A stretch of 64,000 nucleotides of DNA from Curtobacterium sp. MCBD17_032 (GTDB lineage: Bacteria > Actinomycetota > Actinomycetes > Actinomycetales > Microbacteriaceae): NCBI RefSeq assembly GCF_003234855.1, contig NZ_QKTO01000010.1, positions 1 to 64,000 on the forward strand, written 5' to 3'. The notes beneath the pieces were generated by a model. It did no database searches and was not told where the DNA came from. It was given only the letters and a program-made list of their open reading frames with translations. This document shows positions 28,163-35,554 of this stretch, in pieces (within the stretch, counting starts at the first letter, position 1; each line of letters begins with the position of its first letter). Position numbers and translations under genes: made by a program.

Positions 28163-29053
28163 TCATTCGCCCGCGTTGAACTCCTTGAGCCAGGACTTGA
28201 GGTCCGGGCCGAGGTCCTCGCGGTCCGAGGCGAGCTGCACGATCGCCTTGATGTAGTCGAGTTTGTCACCGGTGTCGTAGCGACGTCCACGGAACACGAC
28301 GCCGTACACGCCTCCTGTCCATTCCTCCGCGCTGGCCATCTTCATGAGCGCGTCGGTGAGCTGGATCTCGCCGCCCTTGCCGGGCTCCTGCTTCTCGAGG
28401 ACGTCGAAGACCTCGGGGCGGATGACGTAACGGCCGATGATGGCCAGGTTCGACGGAGCCTCGCCCTGCGCCGGCTTCTCGACCAGGCCGGTGATCTTCA
28501 CGACGTCGTCGGTGTCGGTCTCCTCGACGGTCGCGATGCCGTAGAGGTGCGTCTGCGACGCCGGGACCTCGAGCAGGGCGACGACCGTGGCCTTCTTCTC
28601 GCCCTGGACCTCGATCATGCGCTTGAGCAGCGGGTCGCGGGCGTCGATGATGTCGTCGCCGAGGAGCACGGCGAACGGCTCGCGCCCGACGTGCATCTTC
28701 GCGCGGAGGACCGCGTGCCCGAGGCCGAGCGGGTCACCCTGTCGCACGTAGTGCATGTCGGCCAGGTCCGTCGACTGGTTGACCTTCTGCAGCTTCTCGT
28801 GGTCGCCCTTCTTCTTGAGGGTCTCCTCGAGCTCCGAGACGTGGTCGAAGTGGTTCTCGAGCGCGTTCTTGTTGCGCCCGGTGATCATCAGCACGTCGGT
28901 GAGGCCGGCGTCGACCGCCTCTTCCACGACGTACTGGATCGCCGGCTTGTCGACGACGGGGAGCATCTCCTTCGGCATCGCCTTGGTCGCGGGGAGGAAG
29001 CGCGTGCCCAGCCCTGCGGCGGGGATCACTGCCTTCGAAATCTGGAAGCCCAT
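28163..29053 (-). CDS. galU: UTP-glucose-1-phosphate uridylyltransferase
   Basis: Makes UDP-glucose from glucose 1-phosphate and UTP for cell-envelope sugars. The 296 residues begin with the nucleotidyltransferase signature GLGTRFLPATKAMPKEM (14-30), followed by VDKPAIQYVVEEAVDAG, the LLGDDII metal-binding region and GLVEKPAQGEAPS. Length and motifs match bacterial GalU. A minus-strand TTGACA at 29094-29089 lies upstream, with a weak TCAGAT 18 bases later. Confidence 0.95.
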   Translation of the reverse strand: MGFQISKAVIPAAGLGTRFLPATKAMPKEMLPVVDKPAIQYVVEEAVDAGLTDVLMITGRNKNALENHFDHVSELEETLKKKGDHEKLQKVNQSTDLADMHYVRQGDPLGLGHAVLRAKMHVGREPFAVLLGDDIIDARDPLLKRMIEVQGEKKATVVALLEVPASQTHLYGIATVEETDTDDVVKITGLVEKPAQGEAPSNLAIIGRYVIRPEVFDVLEKQEPGKGGEIQLTDALMKMASAEEWTGGVYGVVFRGRRYDTGDKLDYIKAIVQLASDREDLGPDLKSWLKEFNAGE

Positions 29054-29742: not shown

Positions 29743-30087
29743 GTGCCCACCTACTCGTACCGCTGCACCGAGTGCGGCAACGCGTTCGACATCAAGCAGG
29801 CCTTCTCCGACGCCACGCTCACCGAGTGCCCGGTCTGCGGCGGGGTCCTGCGGAAGGTGTTCTCGCCTGTCGGGGTGACCTTCAACGGCGGTGGCTTCTA
29901 CCGGACGGACTCGCGCACGACGCCGTCGGGCGGCGGCTCGTCGTCGGGCTCCGGCTCGTCGTCCGGCTCGGGCTCGTCGTCCGGGTCCGGTTCGTCGTCC
30001 GGGTCCGGCGCCTCGTCGTCGTCGGGGTCCGGCTCGTCGTCCGGGTCTGGATCGTCGTCGGGGTCCGGCTCGTCGTCCTCGTCCTGA
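29743..30087 (+). CDS. FmdB family zinc ribbon protein with Ser/Gly tail
   Basis: A 114-residue protein whose first 55 residues form a zinc ribbon: Cys8-x2-Cys11 and Cys29-x2-Cys32 in PTYSYRCTECG and TECPVCGG. FmdB-type proteins are putative regulators of unknown role. From about residue 62 to the end the protein consists only of Ser and Gly with one Ala, encoded by imperfect repeats of TCGTCGTCCGGGTCCGGC type. Such tails vary in length among relatives. GTG 29743 is one base after the preceding stop codon. Confidence 0.88.
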   Translation: MPTYSYRCTECGNAFDIKQAFSDATLTECPVCGGVLRKVFSPVGVTFNGGGFYRTDSRTTPSGGGSSSGSGSSSGSGSSSGSGSSSGSGASSSSGSGSSSGSGSSSGSGSSSSS

Positions 30088-30160
30088 CCCGGCCCGCGCC
30101 TCCTCGGTAGGTTGGAGCGGGCCACCGCGCGGTGGCCGTCCACGACAGAAGGGGGCTCGC

Positions 30161-30667
30161 GTGAAGGGCTTCAGGGAGTTCCTGCTCCGCGGGAACGTCA
30201 TCGACCTCGCGGTGGCCGTCGTCATCGGCGCCGCGTTCACCGCCATCGTCACCGCGGTCGTCACGGCGTTGATCAACCCGCTCATCGGTGCGGTCTTCAA
30301 CGCCTCCAGCCTGGACAAGGCCCTGATCGTGTCGTTCCCGACCGTGTCCGGCGGCCACACCGAGCTGCTGTTCGGCAAGGTGATCGGCGCGGTCCTCAAC
30401 TTCGTGATCGTGGCCGCGGTCGTGTACTTCGCACTCGTCGTGCCGGTGAACCACCTCAAGAAGGTCGCGTTCGACCGGACGAAGCGCCACGAGGAGCAGC
30501 CGCCGGCGGACGTCCCACCGACGGACGTCGAGGTGCTCCTCGAGATCCGCGACCTGCTCCGCGCGCAGCAGCAGGGCGGCGACGCCGGTGCGGGCGGCCA
30601 CGGGGCACACGTCGCTCCCGCGGACGCGCCAGAGGGCGCCGGCGTCGCCGGCACCACGAAGCTGTAG
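30161..30667 (+). CDS. mscL: Large-conductance mechanosensitive channel MscL
   Basis: Pentameric tension-gated channel that releases solutes on osmotic downshock. The 168-residue protein begins VKGFREFLLRGNVIDLAVAVVIGAAF, with N-terminal amphipathic segment and first helix as in MscL. The second helix is about residues 68-92 (VLNFVIVAAVVYFALVV), followed by a cytoplasmic bundle (EVLLEIRDLLRAQQ). The C-terminal 30 residues are an Ala/Gly/Pro extension. GTG 30161 follows GAAGGGGG. Confidence 0.95.
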   Translation: MKGFREFLLRGNVIDLAVAVVIGAAFTAIVTAVVTALINPLIGAVFNASSLDKALIVSFPTVSGGHTELLFGKVIGAVLNFVIVAAVVYFALVVPVNHLKKVAFDRTKRHEEQPPADVPPTDVEVLLEIRDLLRAQQQGGDAGAGGHGAHVAPADAPEGAGVAGTTKL

Positions 30668-30706: not shown

Positions 30707-31294
30707 CTACGCCGGCGCGCGCTGCGCCCGGTGCTTCCGGGACATCTCGCCGGCGTACTGCATCCCGGCCAGGACGTGCCCGACCGTCCCGAGCCAGACG
30801 AACACGAGACCGACGTCCCGGACCCAGGAGTGGTCGGCGGCGACCGACGTCGACGAGAACAGCAGCACCGGGAGCCCGACGAACAGCAGCGCGGACCGGA
30901 CCTTGCCCGTCCACGTCACGCGGAGGTCCGGGTTGCCGCGGAACCACGCGCTCGAGAGCGCCAGGAGGGCGAGGTCGACGGCCACCACGACGACGACCAC
31001 GATCCACGGCAGCAGGCCGACCAGCACGAGCGACAGCACGATCGCGACGATCGCCAGCCGGTCCGCGATCGGGTCGAGCGCCTTCCCGAGCTGGGACTCC
31101 TGGTGCAGGCGTCGCGCCAGGAACCCGTCGGCCCAGTCGCTCACGCCGAGGACGACCAGGGAGGCCAGCGCCCATCCCGGGTGTCCGGCGACGACCAGGC
31201 CGACGTAGACCGGGATGAGGGCGAAGCGCACCAGCGTGATGAGGTTCGGCAGCGTCTGCCAGTCGGGCCGGGTCCGCCGGGAGGGCTCCGTCAT
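30707..31294 (-). CDS. CDP-alcohol phosphatidyltransferase
   Basis: Predicted membrane enzyme joining a CDP-diacylglycerol-type donor to an alcohol, of the PgsA type. The 195 residues hold the complete family signature: Asp53, Asp56-Gly57, Ala60-Arg61, Gly70, Asp74 and Asp78 in SDWADGFLARR...LGKALDPIADR. Four or five hydrophobic helices follow. Whether it makes phosphatidylglycerophosphate, cardiolipin or another lipid is not clear. The ATG at 31294 was preferred to a frame 22 residues longer because the family usually begins shortly before TLPNLITLVR. Confidence 0.88.
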   Translation of the reverse strand: MTEPSRRTRPDWQTLPNLITLVRFALIPVYVGLVVAGHPGWALASLVVLGVSDWADGFLARRLHQESQLGKALDPIADRLAIVAIVLSLVLVGLLPWIVVVVVVAVDLALLALSSAWFRGNPDLRVTWTGKVRSALLFVGLPVLLFSSTSVAADHSWVRDVGLVFVWLGTVGHVLAGMQYAGEMSRKHRAQRAPA

Positions 31295-31400
31295 CACACG
31301 CTTCCGTTCGAGGTGGGTCACTGCAAGGGTACCGGTCCGACCCGTGGACTCGTCGGTCACGCCCGACCGTCGGGACGCCGCACCCCCGTGCGCCGGACGG

Positions 31401-31766
31401 TCACTGCCAGTGCGGCGGTCGGTCGCGGAGGAGCCGGTCGTCGTTCTCGCCGGCCGCGTGCCGCGCCGGCTCGGGTGCCGGAGTCGGGTCGCTGCCGGGG
31501 ACCGGGCGGGTCGTGACGCGCCTGCCGGAGCGGATCGCGCCTCCCGGCCTGGTCGACGACGGGACGACGTCCGGCGGCGTCACGGGACCGGTGGTCGGCG
31601 TCTCCGCGGCGGACCGCGCGGGGACGGGAGGCCCGTCACCAGCCGGCGACGCGCCTCCCGTCCGCACGGCGGTCGCGTCCGGTGCCCACGTCCCCGTCAG
31701 GTGGTCCGTGGTCGGGGTCACCGGGCCAGCCTGCCGCGAGGCGCGGCGGGGAACCCTGGCGGTCAT
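31401..31766 (-). CDS. Small proline/threonine-rich protein of unknown function
   Basis: A 121-residue reading frame whose ATG overlaps the stop codon of the helicase-like gene by four bases (ATGA). The composition is disordered (Pro, Thr, Ala, Arg). The C-terminus ENDDRLLRDRPPHWQ is more ordered and looks like a conserved tail. One copy of the repeat hairpin core lies within it (31622-31663), which is why PRRASRQ- and GGASPAGD-type segments occur. It is probably a real coupled gene, but a non-coding 3' region cannot be excluded. Confidence 0.5.
   Translation of the reverse strand: MTARVPRRASRQAGPVTPTTDHLTGTWAPDATAVRTGGASPAGDGPPVPARSAAETPTTGPVTPPDVVPSSTRPGGAIRSGRRVTTRPVPGSDPTPAPEPARHAAGENDDRLLRDRPPHWQ
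31622..31663. repeat. Imperfect copy of the GACGGGAGGC hairpin
   Basis: GGACGGGAGGC and GCCTCCCGTCC form an 11-base stem around a 20-base loop that has diverged from the other copies. It lies within the small open reading frame downstream of the helicase-like gene. Confidence 0.6.
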
Positions 31767-34700
31767 CGGCGTGCGGGTACCGGCGGGATCGAGATCTCCT
31801 GGGTGGCACCGCGGTCGACCCCGAGCACCTGCGCGACCGTGTCCGCGACGCGGTCCGGGTCGGAGAACAGCTGGAACGCGTGCACGCGGACGTAGTGCCA
31901 GCCGAGACGGCGGAGCACTTCGGGACGGAGCCGCAGCGACTCGCGGAGCGATCCCTTCACGAGCGACGCGTCCGTCTCGATGGTGACGCAGACGCCGCCG
32001 TGCGCGGCGACCAGGCCGAGCTTGCCGCGGTGACCGAGGGCGACCGGGATGCCGCGCATCTCGAGGCGCCGCGCCAGGTCGACGAGCAGCGGGTCGGAGT
32101 CGTCCGGCACGTACTCGGCGGTGGTGCGGGCACGGACCTCGGCCAGGATCTCGGCGAGGGCGACGGTGCCGTGGCCCATCCGCTCGGCCTCGATGTCCGA
32201 CGGCTGGAAGCAGGTGACGATGACCATGGAACGCCGGGCACGGGTCATCGCGACCGCGAGCAGGCGCTCCCCACCCGGCTTGCCGAGCGGACCGAAGTCG
32301 CGGAGGACCCGCCCGTGCGGCGTGCGTCCGTAGCCGATCGAGAACACGACGCGGTCGCGGCTCTGCGCCACGGACTGCTCGAGCGTGGCGACGATGAACG
32401 GCTCGGGACGGTCACCGATGACGAACTCGGTGAGGTCCTTGTGGCCCTGCGCCGCCGCGAGCACGGCCTGCTCGACGCGGACGGCGTGCTTCGCCGACGC
32501 GGTGATGACCATGAGCGACTCGGTCGGACGGGTGCGGGCGTGCTCGATGACGTGCCGGACCACCCGGTCGACCTCGGCGTCCACGCTCTCCACGGCACCG
32601 GACTCGGGGTCCGGCACGGCCTTGCCGTCGCTGACGTAGTCGAGCGCGATCGACCCGTGGCCGAGGAACGAACCGGCCCACGGCAGCGACTCGATCCGCC
32701 CGCCGTAGAAGCGGCGGTTGACGAGCTCCGCCAGGTCCTCGCCGCCGGCGCGGTACGAGCGCGTGAGCGAGAGGGTCGGCAGGAGCGTGGACAGCTTCGC
32801 GAGCGCGGAGTCGGCGTGCAGGGCGTCCAGCGTCTCCTCGTCCACCTGCAGCGCGCGGTGGTCGGGGTCGACGGCGATCCGGAACGGCGACGGCGTCTGC
32901 GTGACCGGGTCGCCGAACACGACGGTCTGCCGCGCACGACGGACCGCGCCGACGGTCTCGGCGATCGTCACGGCTCCGGCGTCGACCAGGATCACGGTGT
33001 CGAACGGCATCGTGTCGGCGATCTGCGGGACCTCGTACGGCGATGCGAGCCAGACCGGGGCGATGGCGCGGGACAGGTGCGGCGCGGAGTCGTGGAGCAG
33101 ACGCGAGGTGATCGCGCCCTCCTTGAGCTGCGTCTTCAGTGCAGAGGACTCCTCCGGCCAGTCGACGAGTCCGACCTTCCAGTTCTCGGCGAGCTGCCAC
33201 GCGAGGCCCTGGGAGACGCCGGCCGCGTGTGCGTCGTCGACGAGCCGGAAGTCGGCCTCGACCCGGTCGAGCATGTCGGTGTTCGCGCCGAGCAGGGCCC
33301 GGTCGGACTCGAGCATCGTCTCGAGCGCGGACTGCCACCACGCGAGTTCCAGCTCGGCGGGCACCTGCACGTCGGGCACGTGGCGGTTCGCCAGGTCGGT
33401 GAGGAGCGGCTCGAGCTGCAGGTCGCGGAGGGTCTGCATGAGCTCGGTGCGCTCCTGCAGGTTGTGCAGCACGTCGGACTCGGCGGCGAGTTCGGCGATC
33501 GTCGGGACGAGCTGGTCGATCGGCAGGTTCGCGAGCTGCTGGTCGCGGCTGGTGCGGCCGAGCGGCTCGTCCAGTCGGGCCAGGTCCTCGACGACGTTCG
33601 AGAACAGCACCTGGACGTCGGCGATGCCGGTCGGCACCTCGGGGTTCACGCCCGCGGCCACGTAGCGCTGCCAGAGGACCCGCTGCTGCTGGACGCGGGT
33701 GAGGGCCTCGTGCAGGTCGGACACGTGCACGCCGGGACGGACGTACTCGCGGGCGAGCTTCTTGAGCCGACGGCGGTTCGTGCTCGACATCGGCGCGCCC
33801 TCGCCCCGGGGAGCGGTCGCGGCGACGAGTTCGGACACCGAGCGGTCGAACACGACCGGCAGGAAGCGGTCCAGGGTGTCGCGGATCTCGGTGAGCAGGC
33901 GGAGGTAGATGCCGAGCTCGTTGATCGTCGTGAACTGCCGCATGTGCGTCGACGCGACGAGGTCGTGTGCCCGCTGCAGGAGGGTCGGCAGCGATGCGCC
34001 GTCGAGCTCCCGCGCGGTCGCGTGGGCGCGCTGGGCACCGTCGCTCGTGCTGAACTTCGCGCCGTACCAGGGCGAGTCGTCCGGGCCGTAGCGGAACTCG
34101 CCGAGGTTCGCGGCGCTGACCATCGTCTCGGCGACGCGGGCGCGACCGGTGACCATCGACACGACGGACTGCTTCGAGAGCCGTGCCGTCGTCGACGGGG
34201 CGACCGGCAGCAGGGACAGGCGGGAGAGCTCGACGAGGCAGTCGAGCACGCTGACGCCGAAGTCGGGATCGGTGCGGGTGAGGGCACCGCGGTAGTCGGT
34301 GAGGACCTTGCGGAGGCGCACCAGGGCGTCGTCGACCTCGCGGAGGTTCGGCCGGCTCGCCTTCTCGTTCCGGGCGATGGCACGGACGACGTCGCGGCGG
34401 AGGGTGCCCGGCGTGACGGCGACACCCGGCAGGTGCACCTCGCCGAAGCGGGCCGCGATGCCGCGGAGCGTGGCGCGCCGGGGGCTCACGACGAGGACGC
34501 GCTTGTTCGCCGCGACCAGACCGCCGAGGGCGTTCACGATCGTCTGCGTGCCGCCGGTGCCGGGCAGCGTCTTCACGACGATGGAGTTGCCGGCCGTGAT
34601 CTGCGCGATCACGTTCTCCTGCTCGTCGTCGGCGTCGAGCAGCAGGGTGTCCGTCTCCGGGCTGCGCTCGTCCGACGGGGTCTGCTCGACCGGGTGGTAG

Positions 34701-35554
34701 GACTGCTCGACCTGCCACTTCGCGCTCGGGTTGCCGGCGAGGGCGTCGAGCACCGGGTGGGCGAGGTCCTCGGTGTCCTCGACGAGGCCGGTGGCGACCT
34801 CGGCGAACGTCGACACGACGAGCCGGGCGTGCACCGAGAAGCCGGGGATGTGTGCGGTCAGCCCGCGGAGCCGGTCGATCACCGGGTTCGGGGTGAAGGA
34901 CCCGTCCTGCTGGGCGAGGGCGACGAACGACTGCGCGTCGAGGGTGATGCCGAACTGCTCGCGGAGCGCGTCGGCGAGACCGGGGTTCAGCACGGGTTCG
35001 CCGAGCAGTCGGACCTCGAAGTCGCGGCCGTGCCGACGGATCGCCAGCGGGCGGAGCAGGACCGGGCCGCGGTGGTGCTCGTCGCCGTGCTGCCAGTCGG
35101 CGATGCCGATGCCGAGCTTGACGGCGTCGATCCCGCGGACCGTGGCGAGCTCGGTGCCCTTCGCCTCGACGTGACCGGCGGCGACGCGGGCAGCGCGCAG
35201 GGCGACCTCGTCGCGGATCAGGCTGGACAGCAGCGTGGTCTTGCCGGTGATGAACTGTGCGAGGCCGCCCGGGTGCGTCGTGGAGAGCTCGATGCGCGCA
35301 CGGGGGTGGTCGGCGAAGTGCACGAGCGGACTCGTCCCGCCGACACCGGCGAGCTGCTCACGCCAGGCGTCCCACGCGGGCTCGGCTGCGTTGCCCGCGG
35401 TCAGGCGCGGGTCACCGAGGCTGATCGCGTGTGGGCTCGTGACCTGGAGCTCGGGACGCAGCGGGGACTGCTCGTCGGGCAGGTCGGTGCCCTCGACGGG
35501 GGCGTCGTCGTTCACGTCGTCCTCATCGTCGGTCGCCCTGTCCACTCTCCACAC
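31763..35554 (-). CDS. Large SF1 helicase-like protein with lost Walker A lysine and C-terminal nuclease-like domain
   Basis: A 1263-residue protein built like the large superfamily 1 DNA helicases with a terminal endonuclease fold. The ATPase motif reads LPGTGGTQTIVNALGG: the codon that should encode the invariant Walker A lysine is GGC (Gly) at 34550-34552. The Walker B region reads DTVILVDAGAVT rather than the usual DEA box, and motif III is GDPVTQTPSPF. The C-terminal helicase motifs are better kept (SVAQSRDRVVFSIGYGRTPHG and VAMTRARRSMVIV). The last 80 residues (VCVTIETDASLVKG to RPEVLRRLGWHYVRVHAF) resemble the MTES_1575-type nuclease domain. The frame is intact throughout, so it is maintained, probably as a non-ATP-hydrolysing protein. 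Start GTG 35554 lies six bases after TACAGT; GTG 35545 is an alternative. Confidence 0.8.
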   Translation of the reverse strand: MWRVDRATDDEDDVNDDAPVEGTDLPDEQSPLRPELQVTSPHAISLGDPRLTAGNAAEPAWDAWREQLAGVGGTSPLVHFADHPRARIELSTTHPGGLAQFITGKTTLLSSLIRDEVALRAARVAAGHVEAKGTELATVRGIDAVKLGIGIADWQHGDEHHRGPVLLRPLAIRRHGRDFEVRLLGEPVLNPGLADALREQFGITLDAQSFVALAQQDGSFTPNPVIDRLRGLTAHIPGFSVHARLVVSTFAEVATGLVEDTEDLAHPVLDALAGNPSAKWQVEQSYHPVEQTPSDERSPETDTLLLDADDEQENVIAQITAGNSIVVKTLPGTGGTQTIVNALGGLVAANKRVLVVSPRRATLRGIAARFGEVHLPGVAVTPGTLRRDVVRAIARNEKASRPNLREVDDALVRLRKVLTDYRGALTRTDPDFGVSVLDCLVELSRLSLLPVAPSTTARLSKQSVVSMVTGRARVAETMVSAANLGEFRYGPDDSPWYGAKFSTSDGAQRAHATARELDGASLPTLLQRAHDLVASTHMRQFTTINELGIYLRLLTEIRDTLDRFLPVVFDRSVSELVAATAPRGEGAPMSSTNRRRLKKLAREYVRPGVHVSDLHEALTRVQQQRVLWQRYVAAGVNPEVPTGIADVQVLFSNVVEDLARLDEPLGRTSRDQQLANLPIDQLVPTIAELAAESDVLHNLQERTELMQTLRDLQLEPLLTDLANRHVPDVQVPAELELAWWQSALETMLESDRALLGANTDMLDRVEADFRLVDDAHAAGVSQGLAWQLAENWKVGLVDWPEESSALKTQLKEGAITSRLLHDSAPHLSRAIAPVWLASPYEVPQIADTMPFDTVILVDAGAVTIAETVGAVRRARQTVVFGDPVTQTPSPFRIAVDPDHRALQVDEETLDALHADSALAKLSTLLPTLSLTRSYRAGGEDLAELVNRRFYGGRIESLPWAGSFLGHGSIALDYVSDGKAVPDPESGAVESVDAEVDRVVRHVIEHARTRPTESLMVITASAKHAVRVEQAVLAAAQGHKDLTEFVIGDRPEPFIVATLEQSVAQSRDRVVFSIGYGRTPHGRVLRDFGPLGKPGGERLLAVAMTRARRSMVIVTCFQPSDIEAERMGHGTVALAEILAEVRARTTAEYVPDDSDPLLVDLARRLEMRGIPVALGHRGKLGLVAAHGGVCVTIETDASLVKGSLRESLRLRPEVLRRLGWHYVRVHAFQLFSDPDRVADTVAQVLGVDRGATQEISIPPVPARR

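Follow-up and report, generated by a model that had tools for sequence, protein, structure and literature searches.

The closest described relatives of the gene considered here come from phage defence: PDC-S37, a PADLOC phage-defence candidate, and Hhe and ProA, anti-phage proteins that combine a DUF4011 helicase with a nuclease. The gene lies on the minus strand at 31763-35554 of a 64,000-nucleotide stretch of Curtobacterium sp. MCBD17_032 (contig NZ_QKTO01000010.1; hereafter the window), and is followed by a small partner open reading frame (ORF) at 31401-31766. Its product is, by descent, a superfamily 1B (SF1B) helicase of the UPF1/Dna2-like kind that lacks the Walker A lysine and the Asp-Glu (DE) pair of motif II, and is very probably a pseudoenzyme. 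Pseudohelicases as such are already known, with RecC and AddB among the precedents; what is new here is a pseudohelicase derived from a defence-type helicase–nuclease. According to excerpts of the report on it, PriA of Deinococcus radiodurans is likewise the product of a core gene, a helicase in which the Walker A and B motifs have degenerated and arginine stands for the Walker lysine; it does not hydrolyze ATP and still binds DNA (PMC4504706). It belongs to a different helicase family, and the window protein has additionally lost its nuclease and is accompanied by a small tail protein. The eukaryotic pseudohelicase Utp25, again as excerpted, is required for growth and its helicase motifs are dispensable (PMC9539457), but it has a DEAD-box fold and acts in ribosome assembly. 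A possibly similar gene organization occurs at the cDHS1 defence hotspot of Pseudomonas aeruginosa, which excerpts of its description show flanked by a large core chromosomal DUF4011 gene and a small conserved hypothetical gene (PMC10250203); that pair may resemble the one in Curtobacterium but comes from another phylum. A literature search, with most subscription journals outside its scope, found no paper on this helicase family or on the tail of its partner, and the excerpts of a Micrococcus competence paper (PMC8467076) concern other genes.

The kinship with the defence proteins shows in profile comparisons. PDC-S37 is homologous over both halves of the window protein (311 bits, shown without a cut-off), and the helicase halves and Vsr-like nuclease of ProA (306 bits) and Hhe (134 and 120 bits with the NCBIfam and PADLOC models) align with it; the NCBIfam cut-offs of 1500 bits for ProA and 2000 bits for Hhe lie far above these scores. 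The Hhe and ProA models span 1797 and 1903 positions, more than the window protein, which is also stripped of its catalytic residues. Unlike PDC-S37 and the intact orthologues of two other families of its order (codes f5 and f18; all f-numbers below are family codes), it has neither the Walker lysine, nor the motif II DE, nor the first nuclease aspartate, and unlike PDC-S37 it is the product of a core gene at a fixed locus. Three intact relatives, L137 (f5), L191 (f18) and L195, score 804, 834 and 916 bits with PDC-S37, and four relatives devoid of the lysine (K-less) score 174-527 bits. The same three intact relatives exceed the Pfam cut-offs for DUF4011, AAA_11, AAA_12 and MTES_1575, whereas the window protein falls below every one of them: MTES_1575 at 23.3 bits against 38.2, AAA_11, AAA_12 and a weak DEAD match below cut-off, and DUF4011 not at all. 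The protein MTES_1575, after which the nuclease domain is named, is a different, HEPN-containing protein of Microbacterium testaceum, as far as the excerpted source goes (PMC3710099).

The initial annotation had described an intact 1263-residue helicase-like frame with a dismantled ATPase site, and this description holds. The frame runs from GTG at 35554-35552 to TGA at 31765-31763; further in-frame starts are possible upstream, and a listed TTG would give 1276 residues. The codon GGC at 34552-34550 places Gly335 at the lysine position of the Walker A motif (T-L-P-G-T-G-G-T-Q-T). Motif II, FDTVILVDAGA, aligns without gaps to the FDVVIFDEASQ of canonical orthologues, such that the DE pair corresponds to V857-D858; a reading of the change as DE to DA, which the earlier wording could suggest, is rejected by this alignment. 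Motif III is GDPVTQTP where canonical rows have, for example, GDERQLPPT. The protein thus lacks two of the features expected of an active SF1B helicase, the Walker lysine and the motif II DE, and keeps two others, the motif VI arginine and a UPF1/Dna2-like fold. Its features are listed here, with ratios of nonsynonymous to synonymous polymorphism (pN/pS) that were measured in Curtobacterium only.

31763..35554, minus strand: predicted pseudo-helicase/pseudo-nuclease coding sequence, 1263 amino acids; an ORF with a single match in its own genome.
34655..35404, minus strand: N-terminal region, residues 51-300, DUF4011-like by homology (Pfam DUF4011 matches the intact relatives, not the window protein); pN/pS 0.139.
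34619..34630, minus strand: Q-motif-like D309..Q312, kept in 111 of 111 rows.
34541..34567, minus strand: degenerate Walker A motif LPGTGGTQT, residues 330-338, with lysine replaced by G335 (codon 34552-34550), from the alignment; pN/pS 0.007.
33635..34279, minus strand: central helical insert, residues 426-640; between-family identity 33% in K-less against 35% in intact rows.
32969..33007, minus strand: motif II (Walker B) in degenerate form, residues 850-862, with V857 D858 in place of DE, from the alignment; pN/pS 0.016.
32891..32920, minus strand: altered motif III VFGDPVTQTP, residues 879-888, from the alignment.
32747..32761, minus strand: motif IV RSYRA, residues 932-936, with Arg935 kept, from the alignment.
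32234..32251, minus strand: motif VI AMTRAR, residues 1102-1107, kept, from the alignment.
31805..32107, minus strand: C-terminal PD-(D/E)XK / MTES_1575-like domain, residues 1150-1250; Pfam 23.3 bits against a cut-off of 38.2, AlphaFold predicted local distance difference test score (pLDDT) 74.6, Protein Data Bank (PDB) matches 3hrl and Hjc.
32015..32017, minus strand: Gly1180, where the alignment places the first catalytic Asp of the intact relatives (IDLAV).

The loss is fixed in the close family. We aligned the window protein with loci L001-L110, giving 111 rows, 92 of them distinct over the core and nearly all from Microbacteriaceae by title, apart from a few metagenome bins with other titles. 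Each of the 92 distinct sequences has G, A or S in place of the lysine; a close relative with an intact GKT, which had been named at the outset as the sign of isolated decay, was not found among them. Chance or isolated decay of the Curtobacterium copy is rejected on the same count. Several other motor residues are uniform: D309, Q312, T336 and R1105, the last being the arginine of the AMTRAR motif already noticed in the initial annotation, are identical in 111 of 111 rows, and R935 of motif IV in all 92 distinct sequences.

The nuclease site is incomplete as well. Where the canonical I-D-L-A strand carries its first catalytic acid, 10 of 10 rows with an intact lysine have Asp and the window protein has Gly1180; E1193 and D1195 are retained. 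Because this first acidic residue is lost, the site is probably dead too, and the C-terminal nuclease of the window protein would then probably be inactive. Modelled alone, the domain adopts a PD-(D/E)XK arrangement, and structures near the top of its matches are 3hrl (Z 8.2, root-mean-square deviation (rmsd) 3.3, 88 residues aligned), Hjc 4tkd (Z 7.6, 3.3, 86) and I-Bth0305I (Z 6.5, 3.5, 89); these Z values are middling, and the best Foldseek E-value is 4.4e-3, with none below 0.001. Upx (9wuf) matches the C-terminal nuclease domain only (Z 5.3). Of the nuclease-like C-terminus that the initial annotation had reported, the predicted fold therefore stands and the complete metal site, for which a structure prediction had been suggested, does not; retention as a nuclease scaffold is accordingly not borne out for this protein. 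The motor part of a low-confidence full-length model matches Ighmbp2 (Z 18.8, rmsd 3.6, 225 aligned), Dna2 (Z 18.5, 4.0, 230), Sen1 (Z 17.5), Aquarius (17.2) and UPF1 (about 16). By sequence, an intact relative matches Ighmbp2 with an E-value of 4e-12; a PDB sequence search gave a best E-value of 0.24 with the window protein and 0.19 with the family profile, with yeast UPF1 at 0.23.

The gene is widespread. Matches were obtained in 59 of 59 close-set genomes and 196 of 198 genomes drawn from the order, own genome included in both counts, and in 73 of 197 drawn from the class, a figure that includes the own genome, order members and partial or paralogous matches. None was found, nearer queries included, in the order genomes G102 and G161, both of which are fragmented drafts (92% and 95% complete). 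Two reduced genomes of 0.8 and 0.9 Mb retain full open frames of 1205 and 1221 amino acids. Single in-frame stops are reported within a few matches (G055, G171 at L116, G140, G096 and G369 at L148), and are possibly sequencing errors or local breaks.

To trace the loss beyond the close family, we used a wide alignment of 103 of 195 loci (18 picked from L001-L110 and all 85 of L111-L195). For the trees, 17 near-duplicates and the poorly aligned L175 were dropped, L175 being left out also of the near-invariance, triad-count, IQ-TREE and between-family identity analyses, and L201, L202, L213, L234 and nine longer relatives were added. Among 90 tree rows the lysine is kept in 10, all of which also have the DE pair and the nuclease D-E-D triad; none of the 80 K-less rows keeps the DE pair. 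Eight of the 10 intact rows come from f5 and f18 and sit at the conserved locus, with an FmdB gene and a PPHW-tail gene; in one more f18 row, L190, the lysine is lost. The other two, L195/L214 (f39) and L213 (f33), are not syntenic and hence serve as intact relatives rather than as proof of intact orthologues at the locus. A FastTree tree (99 rows) and an IQ-TREE mixture tree (48 rows, without motif columns) group the sequences mostly by family, with f3 split, and both place f5 and f18 next to a single K-less clade that holds the order's other sampled families. The state of the lysine needs four changes on a FastTree tree built without motif columns and three on the smaller tree, and further losses may be hidden by long branches, such as those of L174, L192, L190, L176 and L138. 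Because canonical orthologues occupy the same locus in two families of the order, the motor was lost from an active ancestor without the gene itself leaving the core genome; the window gene would be, in Curtobacterium, the orthologue of a core gene that the order inherits vertically. A mix-up of paralogues was considered and rejected, given the single match in the own genome, the synteny and the position of longer relatives (roughly 1700-2600 amino acids) outside the family in the tree. Three other genomes of the genus contain such longer relatives, of 1756 and more than 2600 amino acids, with intact Walker motifs: L225 (G015), L226 (G019) and L216 (G008).

The residue that replaces the lysine varies by family, and includes Q, A, G, R, V, H, L and T among others; which letter stands in the Walker column of strongly decayed rows, among them those of f3 and f4, depends on the alignment. 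Arginine is found in f35 and f25. In f35 (L141-L155) the replacement is arginine in 9 of 9 tree rows, and motif II reads E-D, with the order of D and E swapped, in 8 of 9, a combination that would represent a separate route of motor loss. In E. coli PriA, the change of lysine to arginine alone abolishes ATPase activity, according to the excerpts of PMC4504706.

We next consider whether the dismantled protein is maintained. Over the whole gene pN/pS is 0.138 (42 Curtobacterium-level rows, two of them titled only Microbacteriaceae bacterium), and by region it is 0.007 in the nine Walker A codons, 0.016 in the motif II stretch, 0.045 across motifs V-VI and 0.059 in the nuclease domain. Neighbouring genes give 0.068 (galU, 40 rows), 0.177 (HpcH/HpaI), 0.244 (aldo/keto reductase, 33 rows) and 0.399 (CDP-alcohol phosphatidyltransferase). 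Since pN/pS is low there, the degenerate motor site is not decaying at random in Curtobacterium. Across families the pattern is different. Comparing six intact rows (three family pairs) with 97 K-less rows (171 family pairs), between-family identity is 86% against 37% at 79 motif positions, 45% against 31% over the rest of the protein, 48% against 33% in the N-terminal region, 52% against 35% at nuclease positions and 35% against 33% in the central insert. As judged from these alignments, conservation at the motor motifs falls toward the background, and constraint has moved away from the motor, with the central insert about as conserved as in the active forms. The 97 K-less rows, from 19 families, share near-invariant structural positions, for example W154, P164, N190, W496, R594, H615, W628, D852, E994, G1129, G1218 and W1219. 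Thus, one protein combines an active helicase as its ancestor with missing catalytic residues and, within Curtobacterium, purifying selection, and the earlier suggestion of a retained pseudo-helicase is well supported by G, A or S in 92 of 92 sequences, by selection in the genus and by the canonical orthologues that sister families carry at this locus.

The most informative lead is the small coupled partner, which the initial annotation had left uncharacterised. Its own features are these:

31401..31766, minus strand: small partner ORF, 121 amino acids, mostly low complexity with a conserved C-terminal tail; start codon ATG in a 4-bp overlap (ATGA) with the stop of the helicase; no Pfam match.
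31407..31418, minus strand: PPHW tail of the small partner, from the sequence.

The partner ends ENDDRLLRDRPPHWQ, and tails of this type read approximately DDRLLxERPPHW; in one group, L227-L229, the ending is PPHY. Its pN/pS is 0.50 overall and tighter, 0.28, over the last 16 codons up to the W. At 195 loci, which include many from Curtobacterium and some genomes twice, the tail ORF lies downstream of the helicase in 157, is fused to the helicase C-terminus in 14, is absent in 16 and would lie beyond the fetched DNA in 8. The fusions span six families: f6, f10, f14, f16, f18 and f19. Adjacency together with fusion is a classic sign of shared function, and helicase and tail protein would accordingly have one in common. 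The fused loci are L125, L126, L128, L130-L133, L140, L174, L175, L180, L183, L189 and L192; two more fused f18 loci are L202 and L234, and the helicases of L140, L202 and L234 are intact. A 34-position profile built from 18 tails, of which the tail of the window partner is one, such that its own match is by construction, matched 95 of 118 class genomes at E <=0.1, 74 of them at E <=0.001 (listed best E-values), a larger share of the class than that of the helicase (73/197). In 20 class loci fetched for a tail match, FmdB is nearby in 13 and MscL in 10, and of those 20 genomes G238 alone shows a helicase orthologue in the listed matches. A Pfam scan of three tail proteins gave no match. The PPHW- or PPHH-tail protein, which in the class often occurs where the helicase does not, often carries an upstream block resembling DDTDxGWGE (window 31401-31766; loci L255-L274).

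On these observations we propose the following course of events. The ancestor would have been an active protein with a DUF4011 region, a UPF1/Dna2-like SF1B helicase and an MTES_1575-type nuclease, related to PDC-S37, Hhe and ProA, and settled at a fixed locus with the small PPHW-tail gene and, nearby, MscL, FmdB, 5-formyltetrahydrofolate cyclo-ligase and galU. The sequences show that the Walker lysine and motif II were lost on the stem of most families, and the nuclease Asp also in Microbacteriaceae, with the reading frame, the fold positions, the central insert and the partner kept. The present protein would no longer translocate or cut; it would bind nucleic acid through the kept RecA-like folds and the insert, and would dock, or be tethered by, the PPHW-tail protein, probably in a housekeeping role in genome maintenance or another nucleic-acid transaction. 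We lean, by a modest degree, toward this reading of a domesticated pseudo-helicase/pseudo-nuclease that serves as a nucleic-acid-binding scaffold together with the tail protein. In a bolder and distinctly tentative version, the PPHW/PPHH-tail protein is the older of the two and present class-wide, and a defence-type helicase–nuclease became its partner on capture into the core genome of the order. The captured protein would then have been stripped of its motor, and of its nuclease in many families, and may now be a structural part that an undescribed nucleic-acid complex cannot do without. Docking in that complex would fall to the PPHW tail, acting in trans from the small protein or in cis in the fusions.

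Several observations weigh against the scaffold. The tail is missing within reach at 16 of the 195 loci, and the tail gene was not found beside the helicase in the two most reduced genomes (0.8 and 0.9 Mb); as the tail protein also occurs without the helicase, it cannot serve only the helicase scaffold. The near-universality in the order (196/198) counts matches, not orthology confirmed match by match, and the 65% complete G026 has the gene in several pieces. Long-branch effects may account for the single loss drawn for the large K-less clade, the intact side of the identity comparison comprises six rows and three family pairs, and the full-length AlphaFold model (36 sequences) is weak (pLDDT 64.3, predicted template modelling score 0.36). 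Moreover, no stretch measured in Curtobacterium is more constrained than the dead P-loop and motif II, and the Q-motif, Thr336 and the arginines of motifs IV and VI are all retained, on which account a ligand may still bind at the P-loop.

This last point leads to the chief rival of the scaffold, so placed because the dead P-loop is frozen in the close family: a switch in which the altered P-loop binds a nucleotide or another phosphate ligand without hydrolysis and thereby changes the conformation of the scaffold. The pN/pS of 0.007 and the uniformity of D309, Q312, T336, R935 and R1105 in the close set speak for such a switch. However, the P-loop is unrecognisable in most rows of f3, f4, f9 and f14, and hence a function common to the family cannot depend on it; the loss of ATPase activity in E. 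coli PriA on replacement of the lysine by arginine also counts against it, and we consider the switch rather unlikely.

A continued role in phage defence, with the dead enzyme as a sensor and the effector encoded elsewhere, draws on the homology to PDC-S37 (311 bits in the window protein, 804-916 in intact and 174-527 in K-less relatives), Hhe and ProA. The setting of the gene points elsewhere. In a synteny sample of 28 loci of 11-20 kb from many families, fetched for the helicase (hence 28/28 for it), FmdB is a neighbour in 22, MscL in 19, 5-formyltetrahydrofolate cyclo-ligase in 13, a GNAT acetyltransferase in 8 and galU in 6; the names MscL, FmdB and cyclo-ligase were read from sequence and are not Pfam calls. 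The neighbouring genes in the window are as follows.

30707..31360, minus strand: CDP-alcohol phosphatidyltransferase, the next gene, outside the set of widely conserved neighbours.
29891..30667, plus strand: MscL-like channel gene (ORF bounds; name from sequence), neighbour in 19 of 28 loci.
29743..30087, plus strand: FmdB-type zinc-ribbon gene (likely start; name from sequence), neighbour in 22 of 28 loci.
28163..29053, minus strand: galU-like nucleotidyltransferase, in 6 of 28 loci.

This fixed locus is not a defence island or a mobile context, and the single copy in the own genome, the tree mostly by family and the near-universality are unlike a defence-island gene, as is retention in two genomes of 0.8-0.9 Mb. 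The defence role raised in the initial annotation thus survives as ancestry and not as present context, and we regard a protein still at work in defence as improbable.

Less probable still is a non-canonical but active ATPase and/or nuclease, in which other residues restore catalysis. Nine of the 80 K-less rows keep the D-E-D triad, such that the nuclease may be active in f6, f7, f15 and f16, and 54 of the 80 still have the first arginine of motif VI; yet lysine and motif II DE are both lost in all 80, and motif conservation drops toward the background. The K-less rows with D-E-D are L125, L126, L127, L130 and L132 (f6), L135 and L167 (f7), L185 (f15) and L187 (f16), and they are possible nuclease-only intermediates. 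Finally, a pseudogene on its way out is scarcely credible, since the lost catalytic residues, the single in-frame stops in a few matches and the pieces in the incomplete G026 are set against a pN/pS of 0.138, a great majority of stop-free frames among the matches listed and structural residues near-invariant over 19 families, so that ordinary decay is already contradicted for the order as a whole.

The family offers a natural experiment in enzyme loss, in which orthologues at one locus range from canonical helicase–nucleases to proteins without a recognisable motif; as the gene persists in almost every genome of the order, it is testable which part of a helicase–nuclease matters without catalysis. 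There is a warning here for annotation too, for assignment to defence by homology to PDC-S37, Hhe and ProA may catch a housekeeping pseudoenzyme. The finding also draws attention to a core pair of uncharacterised proteins, with a conserved C-terminal tail that occurs across the actinobacteria.

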